Made by a program: the position numbers and the translations under genes
In this document: piece after piece, positions 22,547 through 52,147 of the stretch
How the letters are laid out: each line of letters begins with the position of its first letter
How positions within the stretch are numbered: position 1 is the first letter of the stretch
The notes under the pieces: generated by a model
What the model saw: the letters and a program-made list of their open reading frames with translations, nothing else
Databases searched by the model: none
What the model was told of the DNA's origin: nothing
Assembly (NCBI RefSeq): GCF_002157685.2
Contig: NZ_AP026738.1
Coordinates: forward strand, 2,480,001-2,544,000
Source of the DNA: Comamonas thiooxydans
Lineage (GTDB): Bacteria > Pseudomonadota > Gammaproteobacteria > Burkholderiales > Burkholderiaceae_C
DNA: 64,000 bases
Reading direction: 5' to 3'

Positions 22547-23335
22547 TCAAAGTTGGGGGCGCAAGGTTCTGGCGGCCTCCTGCAGCAGCGGCAGTATTTC
22601 CTGCTGCATGGTTTGCGGGCTCATGCGCTTGGCCGATGTCACCACATTCAGTGCTGCCACGGTGCGCCCGCGCATATTGCGCAGCGGCACGGCCACGGCC
22701 TGAATGGCCAGTTCATGCTCTTCGAGCGCCATGCAGTAGTCGAGGCGGCGCACCTCGTCGAGCAAGGCCTTCAGCGCCGCACCATCGGAGACGGTGTGCG
22801 CCGTCAGCTTGGGCAGGTCATAGGTGGCCAGCCAGTCGTCGAGCTCCGAGCTCGAGAGCGAGGCCAGCAGCACCCGGCCCGTGGACGTGGCGTGCGCCGG
22901 CAGGCGCGTGCCCAGGTGCAGTCCGTGGGCCATCAGCCGTTCGCCTTTTTCATGCACGGCGCTGCGCGCGACGATGACGACTTCGCGGCCCTCGCGCACC
23001 ACGCAGGAGTAGGAGAGTCCGGTCTGCGCTGCCAGTCTGTGCAGCACGGGCTGCACGATGCGAGGCAGCCGCGCCGAGGCCAGATAGCTGCCCGACAGGC
23101 GCAGCACCTTGGGGGCCAGCCAGAAATAGCTGCCGTCGGATTCCAGATAGCCGAGATAGGCCAGGGTGAGCAGATGGCGCCTGGCGGCAGCGCGCGTGAT
23201 GCCTGCGCGCTCGGCGGCCATGGTGGCATTCAGGCGCTGGCGCTCGGTGTCGAAGCTCTCCAGTACGGCCAGGCCCTTGGCCAGGCCGGCAATGAAGTCC
23301 GCCGCAGCGATGGTAGGGGTGCCGGGTTCACTCAT
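22547..23335 (-). CDS. pobR: IclR-family transcriptional regulator, probable PobR
   Basis: A 262-aa regulator with an N-terminal IclR winged helix (residues 14-75, including ITRAAARRHLLTLAYLGYLE) and a C-terminal GAF-like effector domain (VVREGREVVIVARS and HLGTRLPAHATSTGRVLLA). The sequence groups with PcaU/PobR/PcaR, activators that respond to protocatechuate or 4-hydroxybenzoate. It is divergent from pobA across 180 nt that contain three half-sites arranged like the PcaU/PobR operators of Acinetobacter. It most likely activates pobA in response to 4-hydroxybenzoate. The name rests on this context. Confidence 0.88.
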   Translation of the reverse strand: MSEPGTPTIAAADFIAGLAKGLAVLESFDTERQRLNATMAAERAGITRAAARRHLLTLAYLGYLESDGSYFWLAPKVLRLSGSYLASARLPRIVQPVLHRLAAQTGLSYSCVVREGREVVIVARSAVHEKGERLMAHGLHLGTRLPAHATSTGRVLLASLSSSELDDWLATYDLPKLTAHTVSDGAALKALLDEVRRLDYCMALEEHELAIQAVAVPLRNMRGRTVAALNVVTSAKRMSPQTMQQEILPLLQEAARTLRPQL

Positions 23336-23500: not shown

Positions 23501-24691
<1,191 letters not shown>

Positions 24692-42336: not shown

Positions 42337-42458
42337 GAAAAGCTCCAGATGGGGGATTCAGGGGAATCGGGTGTTGTTTGAGAAAGGTCCAGCTCGCACT
42401 TTAGCGGTGTTCTGGCCGCTGTTTGGCAAACTGGCCCGTCTCATGCGCGGCGGCAGAC

Positions 42459-43595
42459 CTAGCCGCGGTAGTAGCGGGTGGGAACGAAGGGCGTGGCGAC
42501 TACCTTCATGGGCACGGGCTTGCCGCGCACCATGGCGAAGATTTCCGTATTGATGGCTGCGTAGTCGGGCTCGACATAGGCCAGTGCCACAGGCTGGTTG
42601 AGCGTGGGGCTGAGCAGGCCGCTGGTGATGTGGCCGATATGCTGTCCGTCCATGTTTTCCAGCACGGCGGGCTCGCGCACGGGAATGCGCTCCAGCGCGA
42701 TCAGGCCCACGCGCTTGCGGCGCAGCGACTGCGGGTTCTGCAATTGCTCCAGAACGATGGCCGCACCAGGGAAACCGCCCTCGCGCTCGCCGCCGGTGCG
42801 GCGCACCTTCTGCATGGCCCAGTTCAGCGCGGCTTCCACCGGGGTGGTGCTGGTGTCGATGTCGTTGCCGTACAGGCAAAGTCCGGCTTCAAGGCGCAGC
42901 GAGTTGCGCGCGCCCAGACCGATGGGCGCCACCTCGGGCTGGGCCAGCAGAACTTCGGCAAAGGCTTCGGCAGCGTCGCCGGGCAGGGAGATTTCAAAAC
43001 CGTCCTCGCCCGTATAGCCGCTGCGCGTGATGTAGAGCGCATGGCCTTGCCAGTCGAAGTGGTTGCCGGTCATGAAGACCAGTTGCGTCACGGCAGGAAT
43101 CAGGCGTGAGAGTGCCGCAGCGGCTTGCGGGCCTTGCAGGGCCAGCAGGGCGCGCTCGGGCAGAGGAATGACCTCGCAGCGGCTACCGATGCGGCTCTGG
43201 ATATGGGCGATATCGGCCTCTTTGCAGGCGCCATTGACGATGAGGAACAGATCTTCGCCGCGGTTGACGAACATCAGGTCGTCCAGAATGCCGCCTTGCT
43301 CATCGAGCAGCAGGCCGTAACGCTGTTTGTGCAGGCCCAAGTCCATGACATCGACGGGCATCAGCGATTCGAGCGCGGCGGCGGCATCGGGGCCGCGCAA
43401 CAGCAACTGGCCCATGTGCGAGACATCGAACAGGCCGGCGGCCTTGCGCGTGTGCAGATGCTCGGCCATCAGGCCTTGAGGGTATTGCACGGGCATGGAG
43501 TAGCCGGCAAACGGCACCATGCGGGCACCCAGTTTCTGGTGCAGGGCAAACAGCGGTGTGGAACGCAGATCGGAAGAGGTGTCAGCAGCAGTCAC
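42459..43595 (-). CDS. gcvT: Glycine cleavage system T protein (aminomethyltransferase)
   Basis: A 378-aa folate-dependent aminomethyltransferase. Visible blocks: GARMVPFAGYSMPVQYP, HTRKAAGLFDVSHMGQ, RSGYTGEDGFEI and EAALNWAMQKVRR, as in the family. It releases ammonia and loads methylene-tetrahydrofolate. There is no ATG start: GTG 43595 has GGAG at 9 nt spacing, whereas the upstream TTG 43601 is only 3 nt from it, so GTG is preferred. It is the first gene after the glycine riboswitch. Confidence 0.96.
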   Translation of the reverse strand: MTAADTSSDLRSTPLFALHQKLGARMVPFAGYSMPVQYPQGLMAEHLHTRKAAGLFDVSHMGQLLLRGPDAAAALESLMPVDVMDLGLHKQRYGLLLDEQGGILDDLMFVNRGEDLFLIVNGACKEADIAHIQSRIGSRCEVIPLPERALLALQGPQAAAALSRLIPAVTQLVFMTGNHFDWQGHALYITRSGYTGEDGFEISLPGDAAEAFAEVLLAQPEVAPIGLGARNSLRLEAGLCLYGNDIDTSTTPVEAALNWAMQKVRRTGGEREGGFPGAAIVLEQLQNPQSLRRKRVGLIALERIPVREPAVLENMDGQHIGHITSGLLSPTLNQPVALAYVEPDYAAINTEIFAMVRGKPVPMKVVATPFVPTRYYRG

Positions 43596-43630
43596 AGGCA
43601 AGCGCTCCGGTGGTCAAACCAAAATGAGTG

Positions 43631-43657
43631 GCCATGCATGGCTGGGCCATGCGTGGC
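43631..43657 (-). promoter_or_regulatory. Hairpin between glycine riboswitch and gcvT (possible expression platform)
   Basis: GCCACGCATGGC and GCCATGCATGGC pair over 12 positions (one wobble) with a 3-nt loop, just after the second aptamer and about 35 nt before the gcvT start. No strong T-run follows, so it could control translation or be a weak terminator. Confidence 0.5.
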
Positions 43658-43670
43658 GGGCTTGCCCTGC

Positions 43671-43908
43671 TGTCCGCTTTACCTGAGAGATTCACTGCCC
43701 GCATTGCATAGGGCAGCTTGCTCCTTCGGTGGATGCCGGTGCACATACGAAATGACAGCCTGCATCTCTCTCCAGCAAGGGACGCTGCAGGTTTGCACAC
43801 CTTGCAGCGCTTGTCAGTCCTTTTGCCTGAGCGTTTTGACACCGGGTTGGGGGTCTGCGCCTTCGGCGGTGCAAGGCAGCTTCAAGCTGCAGGCACTCTC
43901 TCCTGACG
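43671..43908 (-). ncRNA. Tandem glycine riboswitch upstream of gcvT
   Basis: Two glycine aptamers in series on the minus strand. Aptamer 1 begins CAGGAGAGAGTGCC, has CCGCCGAAGGCGCA, and ends CTCAGGCAAAAGGACTGAC. A short linker leads to aptamer 2: GCTGGAGAGAG, CCACCGAAGGAGCAAG and CTCTCAGGTAAAGCGGACAG. These are the GGAGAGA, CCGAAGG and CTCAGG-AAA-GGAC cores of the class. Its position fits glycine-induced expression of gcvTHP. Confidence 0.95.
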
Positions 43909-44003
43909 ATGGCGATTCTAGCGGTGGGCAAGGGGCTTGCACCACCGCAATTAATGGATTTTGGGGTTTTCGAGCACAGATCGTTGGAATTGAGCTTGCG
44001 GCC

Positions 44004-44537
44004 TCACTGCGGTTCTGTGTTCATGGCGGGCGTTCGAGGAACATCGATCTCCTGGCGCGGAAACACCAGTTGGTAGGGCTGCTCGAAGCAGGCCGTCACG
44101 GCCTGGCCCTGGCGCATGCCGGGCTTGAACTTCCAGCGTTCGAGCGAGCGCATGATGGACTTCACGATGCGGGGATCGGTATCGGCGGGCTGATAGGCCA
44201 CACGGCCGAGCTGACCCTGAGCCGTGACTTCCAGACGGAAGACCACCGTGGTCTCCAGCCCGTTTGGAAACCAGTGGGCGCTGATGAAAGGCGTGGTGTG
44301 GCGGCGTGGTCGGGGTTGCTGATCGAGCTGGGCGGGAGGTGTGCAATCTGCATTGATCCAGGCCGGCCAATTTCCGGTTTGGCCGCTGGAAGCCGAGGCG
44401 GAGTCAGCCTGGGGCTGGGGAGTGATGTCGGCCGCCTTAGGCGCCATGGCAGGGTTGCCGGCGCAGGCACTGAGCAGCAGTGCTCCCAAGACGGCCGCGT
44501 ATGCAGCAAGACAGCGTGAGTGGCGTGAAATATCCAT
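44004..44537 (-). CDS. Lipoprotein with TonB C-terminal-like domain
   Basis: A 177-aa protein. The N-terminus is a lipoprotein signal (LAAYAAVLGALLLSACAG) with cleavage before the cysteine. A short variable linker is followed by a TonB-type C-terminal fold: FPNGLETTVVFRLEVTAQGQLGRVAYQ, then RIVKSIMRSLERWKFKPGMRQGQAV. It lacks the long Pro-rich spacer of true TonB and would be lipid-anchored rather than a membrane-spanning energy transducer. Function unknown. ATG 44537 was chosen; ATG 44555 and a frame to 44642 are alternatives. It is divergent from the cupin gene and beyond the gcv riboswitch. Confidence 0.75.
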   Translation of the reverse strand: MDISRHSRCLAAYAAVLGALLLSACAGNPAMAPKAADITPQPQADSASASSGQTGNWPAWINADCTPPAQLDQQPRPRRHTTPFISAHWFPNGLETTVVFRLEVTAQGQLGRVAYQPADTDPRIVKSIMRSLERWKFKPGMRQGQAVTACFEQPYQLVFPRQEIDVPRTPAMNTEPQ

Positions 44538-44730
44538 GGCGGCATTCTCGGCCATCCCCAGTCGATTTCGGCAGACCTGGTGGAGTCGGTCGTTCAGCCA
44601 GGGCCGGGCTGCCTTGCTCCAGAGCTTGTCCTGCAGGGTCAAACATCATGTCCGGCTGGGGCTAAACAGAATTTTTCCCATGGATAGGATTATGACGTTC
44701 GTCAAGAACTGTTTATTCAAGGAGAGACAA

Positions 44731-45264
44731 ATGCCCGAAAAAGCCACGAATGAATTCTGGAAATATCTGAAGCCGATCTCTGAATGTTTTCAGCCTGATG
44801 CGCAGCCGGAGGTTTATATTCAGAACGCTCCCACGGAGGATGAGCGTTATTATGTCCCATTCTCTGAAACCGTTTCCTCCCGTCCCCTCTGGATTTCTCC
44901 ATCACAAAACAAATGGTGCGATATTCTGATGGCGAAGGAGGCCGGTCTGGTGAACCGTCATTACCATCCGCACGAAGTGTTTGCCTACACGATTTCGGGG
45001 AAGTGGGGCTATCTGGAACATGACTGGACAGCCCGTGCCGGTGATTTTGTCTACGAGACTCCCGGAGAAGGCCATACCCTGGTGGCCTATGAACATGAGC
45101 AACCCATGCGTGCGTTCTTCATCGTCAAGGGACCGCTGATCTGGCTCGATGATGACGGAAAGCCAGACGGATATTTCGATGTTCACAGCTACATAGAACT
45201 ATGCCGAAAGCATTATGAAAAAGTCGGCATAGGTGCAGATTATGTGGACACGCTGTTTCGATAG
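44731..45264 (+). CDS. 2,4'-dihydroxyacetophenone dioxygenase-family cupin
   Basis: A 177-aa single cupin. H77 and H79 in NRHYHPHEVFAYTI and H115 in PGEGHTLVAY match the three iron-ligand histidines of 2,4'-dihydroxyacetophenone dioxygenase (His76, His78, His114 there). Length and the FSETVSSRPLWISPSQNKW and FIVKGPLIWLDD blocks fit that family. The enzyme splits 2,4'-dihydroxyacetophenone with oxygen into 4-hydroxybenzoate and formate. AAGGAGAG precedes the ATG. It is followed by an MFS permease and a diol-type dehydrogenase on the same strand. A relative acting on another alpha-hydroxyketone cannot be excluded. Confidence 0.82.
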   Translation: MPEKATNEFWKYLKPISECFQPDAQPEVYIQNAPTEDERYYVPFSETVSSRPLWISPSQNKWCDILMAKEAGLVNRHYHPHEVFAYTISGKWGYLEHDWTARAGDFVYETPGEGHTLVAYEHEQPMRAFFIVKGPLIWLDDDGKPDGYFDVHSYIELCRKHYEKVGIGADYVDTLFR

Positions 45265-45342
45265 TCATTTGAAAAGCCATCAATGAAAGGCGGGACTTCC
45301 TGAAGAATGAAATAGCCCGCCAAAGACGGAATGGAGAGAGAC

Positions 45343-46608
45343 ATGAAAAATCAAGATGAAACCCTCAGGAGCGGGTGGATGAGCTATGAGAACAAGCTGC
45401 TGCTCATTCTGTTTTTTACTTTCGGGATTGTTTTTTTTGACCGGCTGGCATTGTCGTTCTTATTTCCCTTTGTCTCCAAGGAACTGGATCTGAACAATGC
45501 CCAGCTGGGCATGCTGTCGTCCATTCTGGCATTGGCATGGGCGGCTTCTGGTGCATTCTTCGGGGCCTATACAGACCGCAAGGGCGGACGCAAAACGGTG
45601 CTGATTCTTTCGGTGCTGATGTTCTCTCTGTGCTCGGCCTTGTCGGGTCTGGTGGGCGGTTTTGTCGGCCTGCTGTTGTTGCGAGCGCTGATGGGCCTTG
45701 CCGAAGGGCCGGTGCTGCCGCTGTCGCAGACACTGATGGTCGAAGCCTCCACGCCGAGTCGTCGCGGCCTCAACATGGGCTTGCTGCAGGGCTCGTCTGC
45801 GGGCTTGCTGGGCGCCGTGATCGCACCGCCGGTGATTGTTGCGTTGGCCGTGGCCTATGGCTGGCGCACGGCGTTCTACCTGACCTGTGTTCCCGGGCTG
45901 ATTGCCGCCGGGCTCATCTGGCTTCATGTGAAAAACACGGATGGCAGGCGTGCGGATGAGCTCGCTGGAGCCCTGCAGACAGGCTCGCGCTGGGCTCTGC
46001 TGCGTGAACGCAATATCTGGTTGAGCGTGCTGATCAGCTGTGTTTTCATGGCCTGGTTTGTGATCATCATCTCCTTTGCGCCGACCTATCTGGTCAATGC
46101 CAAGGGCTTCGGGCCGGGCACGATGAGTGCTGTCATGAGTTGCATGGGTGTGGCCTGGGTCATCTGGGGCTTTGCCGTGCCCGCCATTTCGGACCATATC
46201 GGTCGCCGTCCGGCACTGATCTTTTTCTCCTTTGTGGCGGCTTGCTGTCCTCTGGCCTTTCTGTATGCGCAATCGCCGGTGGTGATGGGCGGCTTGCTGC
46301 TGCTGACCTATACCGGCCTGGGCTGCTTCACGCTCTTCATGGCCACGATTCCGGCCGAGACCGTTCCGCGAGCGGCCATGGCCACTGCATTGGGGATGAT
46401 CATGGGTTTTGGCGAGTTGATCGGCGGTTTCATCGCTCCGACCCTGGCCGGGGTAGCAGCCGACCGGTGGGGACTTGATGTGGTGATGTGGGTGGCAGCT
46501 GCAGGAGCCTTGCTTGCCGGTTTGCTTTCCCTGGGACTGATTGAGACAGCGCCCAGGCGCGTTGACGACAGGCGGCCGGCTGCAGCATTGAAGGAGTCGC
46601 AGGCATGA
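45343..46608 (+). CDS. MFS transporter in the aryl-ketone catabolic cluster
   Basis: A 421-aa permease with 12 predicted helices. The N-terminal half shows FDRLALSFLFPFVSKELDL and the loop 2-3 motif GAYTDRKGGRKTV; the C-terminal half has SDHIGRRPAL. It fits the organic acid/aromatic branch of the MFS. It starts 78 nt after the cupin gene and its stop overlaps the dehydrogenase start by 4 nt (ATGA), so all three are co-transcribed. It likely imports the aromatic growth substrate. ATG 45343 has GGAGAG upstream; ATG 45331 is four codons earlier. Confidence 0.88.
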   Translation: MKNQDETLRSGWMSYENKLLLILFFTFGIVFFDRLALSFLFPFVSKELDLNNAQLGMLSSILALAWAASGAFFGAYTDRKGGRKTVLILSVLMFSLCSALSGLVGGFVGLLLLRALMGLAEGPVLPLSQTLMVEASTPSRRGLNMGLLQGSSAGLLGAVIAPPVIVALAVAYGWRTAFYLTCVPGLIAAGLIWLHVKNTDGRRADELAGALQTGSRWALLRERNIWLSVLISCVFMAWFVIIISFAPTYLVNAKGFGPGTMSAVMSCMGVAWVIWGFAVPAISDHIGRRPALIFFSFVAACCPLAFLYAQSPVVMGGLLLLTYTGLGCFTLFMATIPAETVPRAAMATALGMIMGFGELIGGFIAPTLAGVAADRWGLDVVMWVAAAGALLAGLLSLGLIETAPRRVDDRRPAAALKESQA

Positions 46609-47705
46609 AGGCTCTGAAATGGTATGGCGCCCGCGATCTGCGCCTGGAAATCATCGAACGCCGGCCCTTGAAGGCCGCAGAAATCCGTATCGAGGTCGCG
46701 TACTGCGGGATCTGCGGCAGCGATATGCACGAGTATCTGCATGGACCTGACTCTATACCGGTCGAGGTCCCGCATCCCTTGTCCCACAGTGTCGCACCCA
46801 TAGTCATCGGCCACGAGTTCTGTGGCACGGTGGTGGAGGTGGCTGCGGATGTCACAGGGCTGCATATCGGAGACAGAGTCGCCGTGGAGCCGGAGTACCG
46901 CTGCGGCCAGTGCAGCTATTGCTGCGCAGGGCGATACAACCTGTGCGAATCCATGGGCTTTGTGGGGCTCATGGGAGACGGCGGAATGGCAGAGGAAGCT
47001 GTGATTCCCGCTTATATGGCACATGTGCTTCCCCCGTCCTTGAGCTTCAGGCAAGCGGCGGTGGCCGAGCCCGCAGCAGTGGCATTGCATGCTGTGCGCC
47101 AAAGTGCACTGCGCCCTGGCGACGCCTGCGTCATCTTCGGCATGGGGGCCATTGGTCTGCTGCTGGTGATGATGGCCAAGCACCATGAAGCGGGCCGCGT
47201 TATTGCCGTCGACGTCGATGCCCGGCGCCTGCGCCTGGCGCGCGAGCTCGGTGCCTGCGACACGCTCGATGCCAGACAGGGCGATGTCGTGCAGCAAGTG
47301 CGTGAACTCACAGGCGGGCAGGGCGTGCCGGTATCGTTCGAAGCCGTGGGTCGCCCGGAAACCTTGAGAGGGGCGCTTGGCGTACTGAGCAAGGGCGGCG
47401 AAGCCGTGCTGCTGGGGCTCATGCCCGAGGCGAGCATCGATACCTTCGATCTGGTCAACCGCGAGCTGCGCATTACCTCCAGCGTGGGCTATCGGGGCCT
47501 GTATCCGGAGCTGCTGGCGCTGATGGCTTCCGGGGTTGTGGATGCCGGGCGTATCGTGACCCATACCGTTAGTCTGGATGCCGCCATACAGGACGGTTTC
47601 GAGCGACTGGCATCTGCCGGGGATGCTATCAAGGTGCTGGTTCAGCCGCAGCCGGATGCCATTGTCCGGTGCGCCCGTCCCCACGCTTTTTCCCACAGCT
47701 CCTGA
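46605..47705 (+). CDS. Zinc-dependent alcohol dehydrogenase, 2,3-butanediol dehydrogenase-like
   Basis: A 366-aa medium-chain dehydrogenase. Catalytic zinc ligands are in YCGICGSDMHEYLHGP and GHEFCGTVVEV; the structural zinc cysteines are CGQCSYCCAGRYNLC; the NAD motif is GMGAIGLLLVMMA. The insertion after GSDMHEY and the SMGFVGLMGDGGMAE block resemble (R,R)-butanediol dehydrogenases, which oxidise vicinal diols to alpha-hydroxyketones. In this cluster it could oxidise a 4-hydroxyphenyl glycol to 2,4'-dihydroxyacetophenone, the cupin's substrate; that is inference. Last gene of the operon. Confidence 0.9.
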   Translation: MKALKWYGARDLRLEIIERRPLKAAEIRIEVAYCGICGSDMHEYLHGPDSIPVEVPHPLSHSVAPIVIGHEFCGTVVEVAADVTGLHIGDRVAVEPEYRCGQCSYCCAGRYNLCESMGFVGLMGDGGMAEEAVIPAYMAHVLPPSLSFRQAAVAEPAAVALHAVRQSALRPGDACVIFGMGAIGLLLVMMAKHHEAGRVIAVDVDARRLRLARELGACDTLDARQGDVVQQVRELTGGQGVPVSFEAVGRPETLRGALGVLSKGGEAVLLGLMPEASIDTFDLVNRELRITSSVGYRGLYPELLALMASGVVDAGRIVTHTVSLDAAIQDGFERLASAGDAIKVLVQPQPDAIVRCARPHAFSHSS

Positions 47706-47733
47706 GCCTTGCTGGCGCCTGCCGCTTCTGCCG

Positions 47734-48714
47734 CTAAGTCATGGCACGTAGCTGACCGTGCTGCGCACGCATCTGTGTGGGCGTCATGCCATGGTGTGAG
47801 CGGAACCTGCGTGCAAAGTGGGCCTGGCTGGCAAAGCCGCAGCGGTAGGCGATTTCGGCAATGCTGTAGCGCTCCAGCGCAGTCTGACGCAATTCCATGG
47901 CTGCACGTTCCAGGCGGCGCACGAGAATCAGCTCGGTCACGCTGTGTCCCTCGGCCTGCAACAGCCGGTTCAGGTGCCTCAGGGAGACACCTGAGGCGGA
48001 AGCGACTTCGCTCGCATCCAGCGAGTGGCGGTGCAGGTGTTGGTCGATATGGGCGCGCGCGGCCAGCAGGTGGGAGGTGCGTAGTGCACTGATTCCTGCT
48101 GCTTCTCCAGCCAGCATGGTGCGCAGCAGGTCACAGGCCTCGAACTGCATGCGATCCTGGTCCACCCCTTCGGGGTGGGCCATGGCATTGCCTACCAGCT
48201 TCTGGAACGCGTGATTGAGCACGCGTCCGCTGCCCGTCGCCCCCGACACACAGATCGGGCCGGGAAGTTGCGCACGGCTGCAGTTGCGGTAGAACCAGTC
48301 GGCAGGCGTATCCACGAGGAATTGGTGCATCTGGTGGGTGAAGCCGAACAGATAGGCATGCCGGGTGTCATAGATCACCAGGTCGCCCGGAGCGAGATGG
48401 ATGCAGCTGTGTTCCTGATAGAAGAAGGCACCGCTGCTGAGCACCAGTGAGACGAAAACCGACTCCTTGGGATGCTGGCGCACCAGCTGTGGCGTGCGCT
48501 CGATGACATGGGCATTGCCGTCTATGTCTGCCAGGGCCAGCTGGCCCAAGCGCATATTGCTCTGCCGCGCGTTCAGACCTTCGTCGGCGTAGGATGAGCA
48601 GCGCAATCCGACCAGAAAAGAAGCGTTGTAGGCTTCCCATTGGTCCAGGCGCTGGCTGGCGGGAAAGGCATCCGTAGCGATCCGGTTCACCGCACATGGC
48701 GCAAGCGAGGGCAT
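47734..48714 (-). CDS. AraC-family transcriptional regulator
   Basis: A 326-aa regulator. Residues 1-200 form an AraC-binding-like domain of the FeaR/cupin type (GDLVIYDTRHAYLFGF). The C-terminal 100 residues hold two helix-turn-helix units: DASEVASASGVSLRHLNRLL and SIAEIAYRCGFASQAHFARRFR. AAGGAG precedes the ATG. It is convergent with the dehydrogenase, 28 nt apart, and is the likely activator of the cupin-MFS-dehydrogenase operon, perhaps acting in the 193-nt region before the cupin gene. Target assignment is from context only. Confidence 0.9.
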   Translation of the reverse strand: MPSLAPCAVNRIATDAFPASQRLDQWEAYNASFLVGLRCSSYADEGLNARQSNMRLGQLALADIDGNAHVIERTPQLVRQHPKESVFVSLVLSSGAFFYQEHSCIHLAPGDLVIYDTRHAYLFGFTHQMHQFLVDTPADWFYRNCSRAQLPGPICVSGATGSGRVLNHAFQKLVGNAMAHPEGVDQDRMQFEACDLLRTMLAGEAAGISALRTSHLLAARAHIDQHLHRHSLDASEVASASGVSLRHLNRLLQAEGHSVTELILVRRLERAAMELRQTALERYSIAEIAYRCGFASQAHFARRFRSHHGMTPTQMRAQHGQLRAMT

Positions 48715-48871
48715 GGGGGTCTCCTTGGCAGGTTCTTATAGTGTGTGCCGACCAAGTGGAGCCAGTGGATGTCGGCAGTGCCGAGCAGACTCTAACATGC
48801 CATGTTTGCGCCTCGCTCCGTGAAGTTACGGGGGTGCAAGTCGCAAATCATGGTCGCAACGCCTGCGTACA

Positions 48872-50080
48872 TCAAGGCTGAGGGCGCGAATCCAGCCGCT
48901 TTGCTTTGCCGGCTGAAGAAGGGGAGTCCGCATCCGCTTTCATATCGGCGCAGGCCCGCCACCAGGCCGAGCCCGCATGCGGAGCGCCCAGGTCCAGGCG
49001 CTCGCCCATCATGGGGGTTGCGATCTCTATGCCGTGCCGCCTGCCCAGACTCACGATCTGCTCGAAGGGGTCCCACCAGGCATGCATGGCGAGGTTGAAA
49101 GTGCCGTTGTGTATGGGCAGCAGCCATTGGCCGCCGAGATCCCGGTGGGCCTGCACGGTCTGCGCCGGATGCATATGGACATAGGGCCAGTGGGCGTCGT
49201 AGGCGCCGGTCTCCATCAGCGTGACATCGAAGGGGCCGAAGTGCCTGCCGATTTCGGCAAAACCGTCGAAGTAGCCGCCATCGCCGCTGAAGAAGACGCG
49301 CAGCGGCCTGTCGGCCTGGCGATCTTCTATGGTCCAGGAGGCCCAGAGCGTACGGTTGCCGTCGCGCAGGCTGCGTCCCGAGAAATGCTGGGCCGGTGTG
49401 GCCGTGAAACGCAGGCCGTCGACCTCGCTGCCCTGCCACCAGTCGTGCTGCACGATCTTGTCGGCCGGCACGCCCCAGGCCGCCAGTCTGTCTCCCACTC
49501 CCAAAGGGCAGAGAAAAATGTCCACCTTGGGCGCGAGCACGCGAATGGTGGCGCGGTCCAGGTGATCGTAGTGATCGTGCGAGAGCAGCACGCCGCGCAA
49601 GGCAGGCAACTCGTCCAGGGCAATCGGCGGGGCATGAAAGCGCTTGGGGCCGGCGAACGACAGTGGGGAGGCTCGCTCGGAAAACACGGGATCCGTCAGC
49701 CACCAGCCGCCGCGCAGCTTCATCAGCAAGGTCGAATGGCCCAGGCGATAGAGGCTGCGCTCGGGCGCGAGGTTCAGCTCGGCCGCGCTCAGCGGCAGAA
49801 CGGGCAGTGCCTTGCCCGGCTCGGAATCGGCCGGCTTGTTGAAGAAGAACTTCCATAGCGTCCCGGCATCGGGCTTGGGGCTGTTGGCCGGACGTGGATG
49901 CGTGTTGCGAAAGCGCCCGCCCGAGTACTGAGGCGAGTCCTCATAGTCGGCGATGAGGGTGGAGAGGCTTGGTTTGCTAAACAAGATCGGGCGCCTGAGT
50001 GGGACATTGGCCGCAGTTTGGGACGGTTTGCAGCGCTGCAAGAGCCGATTTGCAAGAGGCCGTATCGCCGGGGCGGCCAT
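48872..50080 (-). CDS. Metallo-beta-lactamase-fold hydrolase (NAPE-PLD/UlaG-like)
   Basis: A 402-aa protein. The metal motif is LLSHDHYDHLD (H168, H170, D172, H173), with further ligands in ATPAQHFSGRS and FFSGDGGY and a late histidine in LLPIHNGTFNL. The arrangement resembles N-acyl-phosphatidylethanolamine phospholipase D-like hydrolases (VFSERASPLSFAGPKRFH is typical), so a phospholipid or phosphodiester substrate is possible. The N-terminus is hydrophilic and basic without a clean signal. ATG 50080 was chosen because the upstream frame runs into the divergent TPR gene. Confidence 0.88.
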   Translation of the reverse strand: MAAPAIRPLANRLLQRCKPSQTAANVPLRRPILFSKPSLSTLIADYEDSPQYSGGRFRNTHPRPANSPKPDAGTLWKFFFNKPADSEPGKALPVLPLSAAELNLAPERSLYRLGHSTLLMKLRGGWWLTDPVFSERASPLSFAGPKRFHAPPIALDELPALRGVLLSHDHYDHLDRATIRVLAPKVDIFLCPLGVGDRLAAWGVPADKIVQHDWWQGSEVDGLRFTATPAQHFSGRSLRDGNRTLWASWTIEDRQADRPLRVFFSGDGGYFDGFAEIGRHFGPFDVTLMETGAYDAHWPYVHMHPAQTVQAHRDLGGQWLLPIHNGTFNLAMHAWWDPFEQIVSLGRRHGIEIATPMMGERLDLGAPHAGSAWWRACADMKADADSPSSAGKAKRLDSRPQP

Positions 50081-50134
50081 TCCAATGATCCGATAGGGTG
50101 AGTGCGACACTCGCTGTCTGAGGAGCAAATGCAC

Positions 50135-50464
50135 ATGAATCCCATGGTTCACAATCTGGAGAGCATGCTGGCGGCCGGCAAGGACGGTGCGCTGCTGCGC
50201 TATACACTGGGCAAGGCTTATGCCGACGAGGAGCAGATGGCAGTGGCGCGCGAGCATCTGCGCAAGGCCACGGCACTGGATGCCGAATACTCCGTCGCCT
50301 GGAAGCAGCTGGGCAAGGTGGAGCTGGCGCTGGGCGATGCGCAGGCGGCGCGAGCCGCCTGGCAGCAAGGGCTGAGCTGTGCCCAGGCCAGGGGCGATGC
50401 CCAGGTCGTCAAGGAGCTGCAGGTTTTTTTGCGACGCCTGGACAAGCAGGCTACAGGCGCCTAG
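50135..50464 (+). CDS. Small TPR-repeat protein
   Basis: A 109-aa cytoplasmic protein consisting of about two to three tetratricopeptide repeats: ALLRYTLGKAYADEEQMAVAREHLRKATAL, DAEYSVAWKQLGKVELALGDAQAARAAWQQGL and a final helix. AGGAG lies 9 nt before ATG 50135; an ATG at 50129 is too close to it. It would mediate protein contacts; the partner is unknown. It is divergent from the hydrolase gene and ends at a palindromic element that probably terminates transcription. Confidence 0.82.
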   Translation: MNPMVHNLESMLAAGKDGALLRYTLGKAYADEEQMAVAREHLRKATALDAEYSVAWKQLGKVELALGDAQAARAAWQQGLSCAQARGDAQVVKELQVFLRRLDKQATGA

Positions 50465-50472
50465 CAACTATC

Positions 50473-50525
50473 AAAAAAATAGCTGGAAGCGCTTGTAGAT
50501 CAAGCGTTTCCAGCCAGTTTTTTGT
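50473..50525. terminator. Bidirectional terminator-like element (AGCGCTTG/CAAGCG family)
   Basis: CTGGAAGCGCTTG (50483-50495) pairs with CAAGCGTTTCCAG (50501-50513) around TAGAT, with A-rich and T-rich flanks. It lies between the convergent TPR gene and emrB. It shares its core with the elements at 56861 and 63554. Confidence 0.75.
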
Positions 50526-50533
50526 CAATTCCT

Positions 50534-52147
50534 TCAGTGTGCGCCGGCGGCCGCGTCGGCGGCTCCTGCGGGAGAGGCCGGGCGCTTGGTGAACCAGATC
50601 AGCACGATCAGGCTCAGGAACAGAAAGGACGATGCCAGAAAGATGTCGTCGGCGGCCCGCGTGAAGGCCTGCTGATCGATCAGCCGGTTGATCTGGGTAT
50701 AGGCCTGCTCGGCGCTCATGCCTGCGGCCTGCAGGTTTCTGACCGTGCTGGCAAACGTGCCCTGGCCCTGCACCAGCAGCTCGGTCAGATGCGCATGGTG
50801 CATGGAAGCGCGGCTTTCCCAGAGCGTGGTGGCAATCGAGGTGCCCATGGCGCCGGCCGTGATCCGCACGAAGTTGGACAGACCTGCGGCGGCAGGAATG
50901 CGGTCCGGCGTCAGTCCGCTCAGCGTGATGGTGGTCAGCGGAATGAAGAAGAAGGCCATGGCGCCCCCTTGGATCAGCGTGGGAATCAGGATGTGGGCGA
51001 AGTCGGTCTCCACGGTGAACTGCGAGCGCATCCACAGCACCATGGCAAACACGATGAAGGCAATCGTGGCCATCTTGCGCGGATCCCAGACTCCGACCTT
51101 GCGGCCCACCATGGGCGTGAGCAGGATGGCCAGCAGGCCCACCGGCGCCAGGGCCAGGCCGGCGGAGGTGGAGGTGTAGCCCATCCATTGCTGCAGCCAC
51201 AGCGGCAGCAGCACCACATTGCCGAAGAACAGGCCATAGGCGATCGACAGCGCGATCGAGCCGGCCGCGAAGTTGCGTCGCTTGAACAGGCGCAGATCGA
51301 CGACGGGATGGGCGTCGGTCAGCTCCCAGACCACGAACACGGCAAAAGCCACGACAGCGATCACCGCAAAGGCGATGATTTCATTGGAGGCAAACCAGTC
51401 CAGTTCCTTGCCCTTGTCCAGCATCAGCTGCAGCGCCGCCACCCACAGCACGAGCAGGGACAGGCCCACGGTGTCGATAGGCAGCTTGCGTGTGGGCGTT
51501 TCGCGGTTGCGGTAGATGCTCCAGGTCATGAGGGCCGAGAGCAGGCCCACGGGCACGTTGATGTAGAAGATCCAGGGCCAGGAAATATTGTCCGTGATCC
51601 AGCCGCCCAGCAGCGGCCCCACCACGGGCGCGACCAGGGTCGTCACGCCCCAGAGCGATAGCGCCACACCGGCCTTGGCGGGCGGATAGCTGGACAGCAG
51701 CAGGGTCTGCGACAGCGGGATCATGGGGCCGGCCACGGCGCCTTGCAGCACGCGGAACAGCACCAGCATCTCCAGCGAGGAGGCAAAGCCGCAGAGCCAG
51801 GAGGTCAGCACGAACAGCAGCACGCTCATGGTGAACAGGCGTACGGCGCCGAAGCGCTGGGTGAGCCAGCCCGTCAGCGGCACGGAGATGGCATTGGCCA
51901 CACCAAAGCTGGTGATGACCCAGGTGCCCTGGCTGGGGCTGACGCCCACATCGCCCGAGATGGCCGGAATGGCCACGTTGGCGATGGAGGAGTCCAGCAC
52001 GTTCATGAAGGTGGCCAGCGATAGTGCCAGCGTGCCCAGGGCGAGCTGCGCGCCCTTGAGCGGGGCGATGGCTGGCGGCATGGGGCGGGCCGCCGCAGCC
52101 GGTGGCGAGGCGCCCGCTCCGGGGTCGTCAGAGGTCGTGGAAGTCAT
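50534..52147 (-). CDS. emrB: DHA2-family multidrug efflux permease EmrB
   Basis: A 537-aa MFS protein with about 14 helices, the DHA2 count. Helix 1 carries FMNVLDSSIANVAIPAISGD with the proton-linked aspartate, motif A is GWLTQRFGAVRLF, and motif C is GPLLGGWITDNISWPWIFYINVP. It pumps hydrophobic drugs or aromatic acids through the EmrA/outer-membrane channel. Last gene of the marR-outer membrane factor-emrA-emrB operon, 15 nt after emrA. The N- and C-termini are Pro/Ala-rich and disordered. Confidence 0.94.
   Translation of the reverse strand: MTSTTSDDPGAGASPPAAAARPMPPAIAPLKGAQLALGTLALSLATFMNVLDSSIANVAIPAISGDVGVSPSQGTWVITSFGVANAISVPLTGWLTQRFGAVRLFTMSVLLFVLTSWLCGFASSLEMLVLFRVLQGAVAGPMIPLSQTLLLSSYPPAKAGVALSLWGVTTLVAPVVGPLLGGWITDNISWPWIFYINVPVGLLSALMTWSIYRNRETPTRKLPIDTVGLSLLVLWVAALQLMLDKGKELDWFASNEIIAFAVIAVVAFAVFVVWELTDAHPVVDLRLFKRRNFAAGSIALSIAYGLFFGNVVLLPLWLQQWMGYTSTSAGLALAPVGLLAILLTPMVGRKVGVWDPRKMATIAFIVFAMVLWMRSQFTVETDFAHILIPTLIQGGAMAFFFIPLTTITLSGLTPDRIPAAAGLSNFVRITAGAMGTSIATTLWESRASMHHAHLTELLVQGQGTFASTVRNLQAAGMSAEQAYTQINRLIDQQAFTRAADDIFLASSFLFLSLIVLIWFTKRPASPAGAADAAAGAH

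Follow-up and report, generated by a model that had tools for sequence, protein, structure and literature searches.

2,4'-Dihydroxyacetophenone dioxygenase (DAD; EC 1.13.11.41; PDB 4p9g and 5bpx) is known from Alcaligenes sp. 4HAP, where it belongs to the 4-ethylphenol/4-hydroxyacetophenone route. (2R,3R)-Butanediol dehydrogenases (BDHs) are known as zinc dehydrogenases of the MDR family (PDB 6ie0) and, in Kurthia gibsonii, as a biocatalyst (KgBDH) that converts 2-hydroxyacetophenone to (R)-1-phenyl-1,2-ethanediol, according to passages of PMC7046757. Here we describe a locus of Comamonas thiooxydans in which genes of both types stand together with that of an MFS permease. The locus lies in a stretch of 64,000 nt (the window) covering positions 2,480,001-2,544,000 of a genome of 5.9 Mb in one contig, and positions below are counted within this window. 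We propose, at a probability of roughly 0.57, that the function of the operon is to degrade the side chain of a 4-hydroxyphenyl vicinal diol by a short pathway.

The operon comprises three genes on the forward strand: DAD, a cupin with non-haem iron (44731-45264; 177 aa), the permease (45331-46608; 425 aa; MFS_1, 6.7e-48) and BDH (46605-47705; 366 aa). There is a gap of 66 nt between DAD and the permease gene, and the permease and BDH genes overlap by 4 nt. A gene for an AraC-type regulator (47734-48714, reverse strand; 326 aa; HTH_18 and AraC_binding_2) is convergent with the operon, its stop being 28 nt from that of BDH. An earlier note, made from the DNA alone, had reported these four genes, the overlap and the convergence, and all were found as described. 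The note had also proposed a search for the three genes in other genomes, and the identical DAD-MFS-BDH order is present in Pseudomonas, Marinobacterium, Marinomonas and Paraburkholderia. It is therefore unlikely that the arrangement is due to chance, and we regard the operon as real and conserved.

The cupin matches 4p9g (E=4.7e-98) and 5bpx (E=1.2e-89) in a phmmer comparison with PDB sequences. It has the same length as the Alcaligenes enzyme and is identical to it at 134 of 174 aligned residues (77%). The three iron-ligand histidines of the solved structure (76, 78 and 114; 77, 79 and 115 when Met1 is counted) are all kept, so that the DAD-like histidine spacing claimed in the earlier note is borne out. 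Section 3.4 of PMC4219425 names 21 residues of the pocket and the iron site, of which 20 are identical here, including Tyr93, Trp61, Asp63, Ser49, Phe43, Phe129 and Tyr153 of the pocket lining, and the exception is Met156, which is replaced by Leu. Comparison of DADs from Comamonas, Pseudomonas and alphaproteobacteria shows the pocket to be near-invariant; six paralogues of about 42% identity deviate at several positions. By sequence, the cupin is a DAD. In the substrate model, as given in passages of PMC4219425, the phenol hydroxyl is bonded by Trp61 and Asp63, and an analogue that lacks this hydroxyl is turned over at 5% (citing Enya et al.). The contact and the poor turnover together make a 4-hydroxyphenyl hydroxyketone the very probable substrate. 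DADs of 95-97% identity occur in two loci of Comamonas sp. The contig of one DAD of 80% identity (L045) bears the label Streptomyces sp. AcH 505, which may reflect recent transfer or contamination.

Pfam and PDB comparisons place the BDH protein in the zinc MDR family, with the (R,R)-butanediol dehydrogenase 6ie0 as its closest PDB match (E=3.6e-81, a full-length match, residues 1-348); no NCBIfam equivalog scored above its cut-off. The KgBDH reaction is the reverse of the step proposed here, on the phenyl analogue, and (R)-1-phenyl-1,2-ethanediol is reportedly oxidised to the ketone by an NAD+-linked Candida parapsilosis enzyme (PMC3551732). These two reactions make it chemically reasonable that a glycol would be converted to a hydroxyketone in the first step. 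For the permease, the top NCBIfam subfamilies are galactonate and aromatic acid/H+ symport, every match shown being under its cut-off, and uptake of an aromatic substrate is its probable function.

The following course is inferred as regards the substrate, cofactor and direction of the dehydrogenase, the substrate of the transporter and the regulation. The permease would import a 4-hydroxyphenyl vicinal diol, and BDH would oxidise the benzylic alcohol of one enantiomer of 1-(4-hydroxyphenyl)-1,2-ethanediol, probably with NAD+, to 2,4'-dihydroxyacetophenone. DAD is predicted to use O2 to split the bond between the carbonyl and hydroxymethyl carbons, giving 4-hydroxybenzoate and formate. PobA could then convert 4-hydroxybenzoate to protocatechuate in this genome, and the AraC-type protein would be the likely activator. 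In short, a phenolic diol of plant or lignin type is the probable substrate: it would be imported, oxidised to a ketone and stripped of its side chain.

The pairing of DAD with a dehydrogenase was followed through 53 genomes of the genus, 399 of the family and 369 of the class, the last two sets being centred on the genome of the window, and through the 80 best among 279 genome-contig loci with a confirmed DAD. DAD or a relative (E<=1e-20) is present in 17 of the genus genomes: 11 at 77-100% identity, two at 69-71% and four with paralogues only (41-44%). BDH (E<=1e-70) is present in nine, and DAD adjoins it in all nine; the permease gene adjoins DAD in 11 of 11 (the window and L101-L110). In the family sample, where up to five candidates were scored per genome, BDH (E<=1e-85) was found in two genomes, that of the window and G617, directly linked to DAD in both and, in G617, immediately after it, and DAD (E<=1e-60) in three, including that of the window. 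Within the class sample BDH (E<=1e-80) is confined to the genome of the window, and DAD occurs in two genomes including that one. Among the 80 loci, 24 have a BDH of at least 45% identity within 2.2 kb of DAD and 48 have a short-chain dehydrogenase (SDR) of at least 45% identity within 3.5 kb. One or other is near DAD in 68, and both are in four (Pseudomonas L040 and L075; Marinobacterium L041 and L046). Restricting the count to the 59 loci whose flanks are complete gives 21 with BDH within 3.5 kb of DAD and none with BDH at 6-9.5 kb; the corresponding figures for SDR are 36 and none. Parsimony on the DAD tree gives 12 changes of BDH presence, or fewer if only well supported branches are counted, the tree having been made by a quick method that leaves 48 of 90 inner branches open. 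These changes hint that the association is not a single inherited block. Taken together, the comparison strengthens the pairing of DAD with a dehydrogenase, and we regard the interpretation given in the earlier note as partly supported. The earlier note had suggested that the dehydrogenase makes the substrate of the cupin. An enzyme of the diol/hydroxyketone type is indeed a recurrent partner of DAD; the glycol itself and the direction of the reaction are still conjecture.

The same comparison bears on the idea that BDH catalyses the reverse reaction, or has a small aliphatic diol or acetoin as its substrate, and shares with DAD only its regulation. In its favour, the best characterised PDB relative is named for 2,3-butanediol. 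Against it, every BDH of this group detected in the genus and family samples is linked to DAD, SDRs adjoin DAD in many loci that have no BDH, and there are DAD-BDH pairs without this permease (L052, L073 and G617). We consider such a role very improbable.

A number of observations weigh against a diol pathway. Family membership leaves the substrate of the dehydrogenase unfixed. Neither BDH nor SDR is near DAD in 12 of the 80 loci, although in four of these (L029, L043, L063 and L079) the contig stops within 1 kb of DAD and in L018 there is an SDR at 4.0 kb. Both are likewise missing beside DAD in G008 and G036, in the third DAD genome of the family sample (G593, 62% identity) and in the second of the class sample (G223). 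With a looser cut-off the SDR counts in the full-flank loci become 36 near and five far. The SDR seeds were drawn from these very loci, so that the SDR count is partly circular, and many loci are closely related, so that the counts are not independent events. Six conserved neighbour clusters have no match in Pfam. Finally, of the 11 genus genomes that have a close DAD, five lack pobA, and 4-hydroxybenzoate may not be the product of DAD everywhere.

In a second Comamonas group of six genomes (G015, G019, G021, G023, G030 and G041; loci L105-L110) an SDR gene comes after the operon in every case. The best match of the representative from L105 is meso-2,3-butanediol dehydrogenase (208 bits vs a cut-off of 270), and G023 and G030 have the SDR with BDH absent. 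Dehydrogenases of the two types may oxidise two diol enantiomers, or two diols, to one type of ketone ahead of DAD. The database search for BDH relatives (120 listed of 1017 found) includes a protein named Pseudomonas aeruginosa (P0048) in which an SDR domain is joined to a BDH that shares 91% identity with the one in L040, either a natural fusion or a sequencing artefact.

The other neighbours of DAD differ between lineages. In alphaproteobacterial loci DAD mostly occurs with an SDR, an aldehyde dehydrogenase and a branched-chain-type ABC transporter, often also with a thiamine diphosphate (ThDP) enzyme, and the strand sometimes differs. With the cut-offs used, a transporter of the ABC type is within 6 kb of DAD in 45 of the 80 loci, the MFS permease in 27 and the ThDP enzyme in 23. 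The ThDP enzyme gene is about 1.1 kb upstream of DAD, mostly in alphaproteobacterial loci (e.g. L022 and L042), and its representative is above the NF006203/PRK08327 cut-off. In Pseudomonas loci genes for an OprB-family porin and a GMC oxidoreductase often come after BDH.

These neighbours also bear on the described physiological role of DAD, which is in 4-hydroxyacetophenone breakdown (according to passages of PMC4219425). The operon could likewise serve 4-hydroxyacetophenone derived from 4-ethylphenol, an unlinked hydroxylase supplying 2,4'-dihydroxyacetophenone to DAD as in Alcaligenes sp. 4HAP, with BDH acting on an alcohol like 1-(4-hydroxyphenyl)ethanol or being peripheral. The family-named conserved neighbour clusters consist of transporters, regulators, dehydrogenases, the ThDP enzyme, the OprB porin and some genes of unrelated kinds. 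The only recurrent candidate for a 4-hydroxyacetophenone hydroxylase among them is HpaB, in seven Pseudomonas loci; the six further clusters without a Pfam match could include another. Vicinal diols and acetoins, not simple 1-arylethanols, are in addition the typical substrates of the BDH family. We therefore think this route unlikely for the operon. The HpaB-type cluster (4-hydroxyphenylacetate 3-hydroxylase; representative in L040) is found in L040, L031, L033, L044, L047, L048 and L055; in L040 the gene is 2-4 kb upstream of DAD.

The earlier note had the operon feeding pobA, which it placed with its regulator about 20 kb away. Both genes are there and above their NCBIfam cut-offs: pobA (23516-24691, forward strand; TIGR02360, 697.7 bits vs 538.7), coding for 4-hydroxybenzoate 3-monooxygenase, and, divergent from it, a gene for an IclR regulator of the PcaR/PcaU/PobR family (22547-23335, reverse strand; TIGR02431, 306 bits vs 284.75). 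The distance is similar in G007, G020 and G034, and in G024 pobA and DAD are on separate contigs. The operon and its regulator, however, form an accessory insert (44369-48945, about 4.6 kb; blastn of window 42401-51000 against L135-L138). Four close relatives of this genome with no close DAD (G045, G046, G049 and G050) have about 265-280 bp in its place; in G050 the only DAD relative is a 42% paralogue located elsewhere. The distance from pobA to the MBL gene downstream of the insert is about 20 kb in these four genomes and 24 kb in the window, a difference that fits the insert. The pobA-DAD distance therefore reflects the chromosome backbone, and we rejected proximity to pobA as evidence of linkage. 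No pobA above the TIGR02360 cut-off was found in G019, G021, G023, G030 or G041, each of which has a DAD at 77-79%, so that pobA does not occur wherever the DAD operon does. PobA thus stands as a plausible downstream step in this genome, outside the operon; the claim of a pathway feeding it is weakened. The genome of the window also has a second PobA-family gene (G000:C1:2324793-2325956; 601 bits) beside a second LigA-family match (2324389-2324652). Just past the insert is gcvT of glycine cleavage (42459-43601); DAD releases formate, and the adjacency is probably coincidental.

In the second Comamonas group ligA (protocatechuate 4,5-dioxygenase) is 5-7 kb from DAD in six of six genomes, five of them being those without pobA, and in L105 genes for LigB, an OxRdtase_C oxidoreductase and an aldo/keto reductase are between ligA and the DAD operon. 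The genomes without pobA may put 4-hydroxybenzoate to another use, or their substrate may carry a 3,4-dihydroxylated ring from the start; the DAD pocket does not discriminate between the two. This raises the question of whether ring-substituted glycols (3,4-dihydroxyphenylglycol or 4-hydroxy-3-methoxyphenylglycol) are the true substrates, from which DAD would give protocatechuate or vanillate directly, making pobA irrelevant. The position of ligA and the lack of pobA are in keeping with this. As for a vanillate route, VanA_C matches of at least 170 bits are present in the group of the window and absent from all six genomes of the second group; in the pobA-less genomes matches stay below 100 bits, and a vanillate route was rejected for them. 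The pocket of the pobA-less group, on the other hand, shows no change at the 21 positions other than the Met/Leu variation at 156, which is also seen elsewhere, and so gives no sequence sign of altered ring specificity, and the genome of the window has its two PobA genes above the family cut-off. Ring-substituted glycols as the true substrates are, in our view, quite unlikely.

The closest NCBIfam model of the AraC-type protein is FeaR, at 119.8 bits and so below the cut-off of 199. Upstream of DAD, 30 other tabulated loci, including those of Pseudomonas, encode AraC homologues of 33-44% identity; 28 of these genes are divergent from DAD, and those of L111 and L112 share its strand. A LysR-type gene is divergent from DAD in the second Comamonas group (L105, with relatives of 86-94% in L106-L110). 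An alignment of the 300 nt upstream of DAD revealed two blocks (44638-44705, forward strand), GTCAAAC...CATGTCCGG (44638-44655) and GATAGGATTATGACGTTCGTCAA (44683-44705), which are near-identical in five genus genomes (the window and L101-L104) and may form an activator or promoter region; a sigma-70 consensus promoter was looked for upstream of DAD and none was found.

If a diol pathway is the function of the operon, then the recurrent diol-type dehydrogenase partner would place DAD at the end of a route that breaks down phenolic 1,2-diols derived from plants, lignin or aromatic amines, leading from C6-C2 diols to 4-hydroxybenzoate in two steps that require no CoA or ATP. More tentatively, and as a possibility that we hold to be doubtful, DAD may be the core of a widespread undescribed arylglycol pathway. 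Dehydrogenases of two unrelated families, butanediol-type MDR and SDR, perhaps one per enantiomer, would supply the hydroxyketones, and the products would go to PobA or, in Comamonas genomes without pobA, directly from 3,4-dihydroxyphenylglycol to protocatechuate 4,5-cleavage. This would explain the purpose of DAD in most of the bacteria that carry it.

The earlier note knew of no described gene set of this kind, and the literature searched, in which subscription journals were thinly covered, likewise yielded no description of DAD-MFS-BDH. 4-Hydroxyphenacyl alcohol, which we take to be another name of the DAD substrate, occurs in bisphenol A pathways too, according to passages in the literature. 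Comamonas serinivorans has a DAD gene in its genome and 3,4-dihydroxyphenylglycol in its cultures; passages of PMC6307125 suggest for this glycol a COMT/mandelate route rather than DAD. The DAD of Alcaligenes sp. 4HAP resembles that of the window in length, iron site and pocket, but no described operon joining it to a diol dehydrogenase was found. KgBDH acts on the phenyl analogue pair and can be likened to the BDH of the window by reaction only; in contrast to that biocatalyst, the latter was found only adjacent to DAD in the genus and family samples. In Novosphingobium sp. MBES04 a DAD-like gene heads the four-gene cluster G-II, for which a lignin-type arylpropanone and 2,4'-dihydroxyacetophenone both act as inducers. 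Its remaining three genes are called hypothetical in the relevant passages of PMC10866074, and the likeness to our operon is one of description only. Finally, the Hpe/Acv acetovanillone pathway also serves bacterial breakdown of lignin-type hydroxyphenylethanones, but, as described in passages of PMC13101465 (see also PMC9618137), it uses a kinase, a carboxylase and a phosphatase where the operon described here has a cupin dioxygenase.

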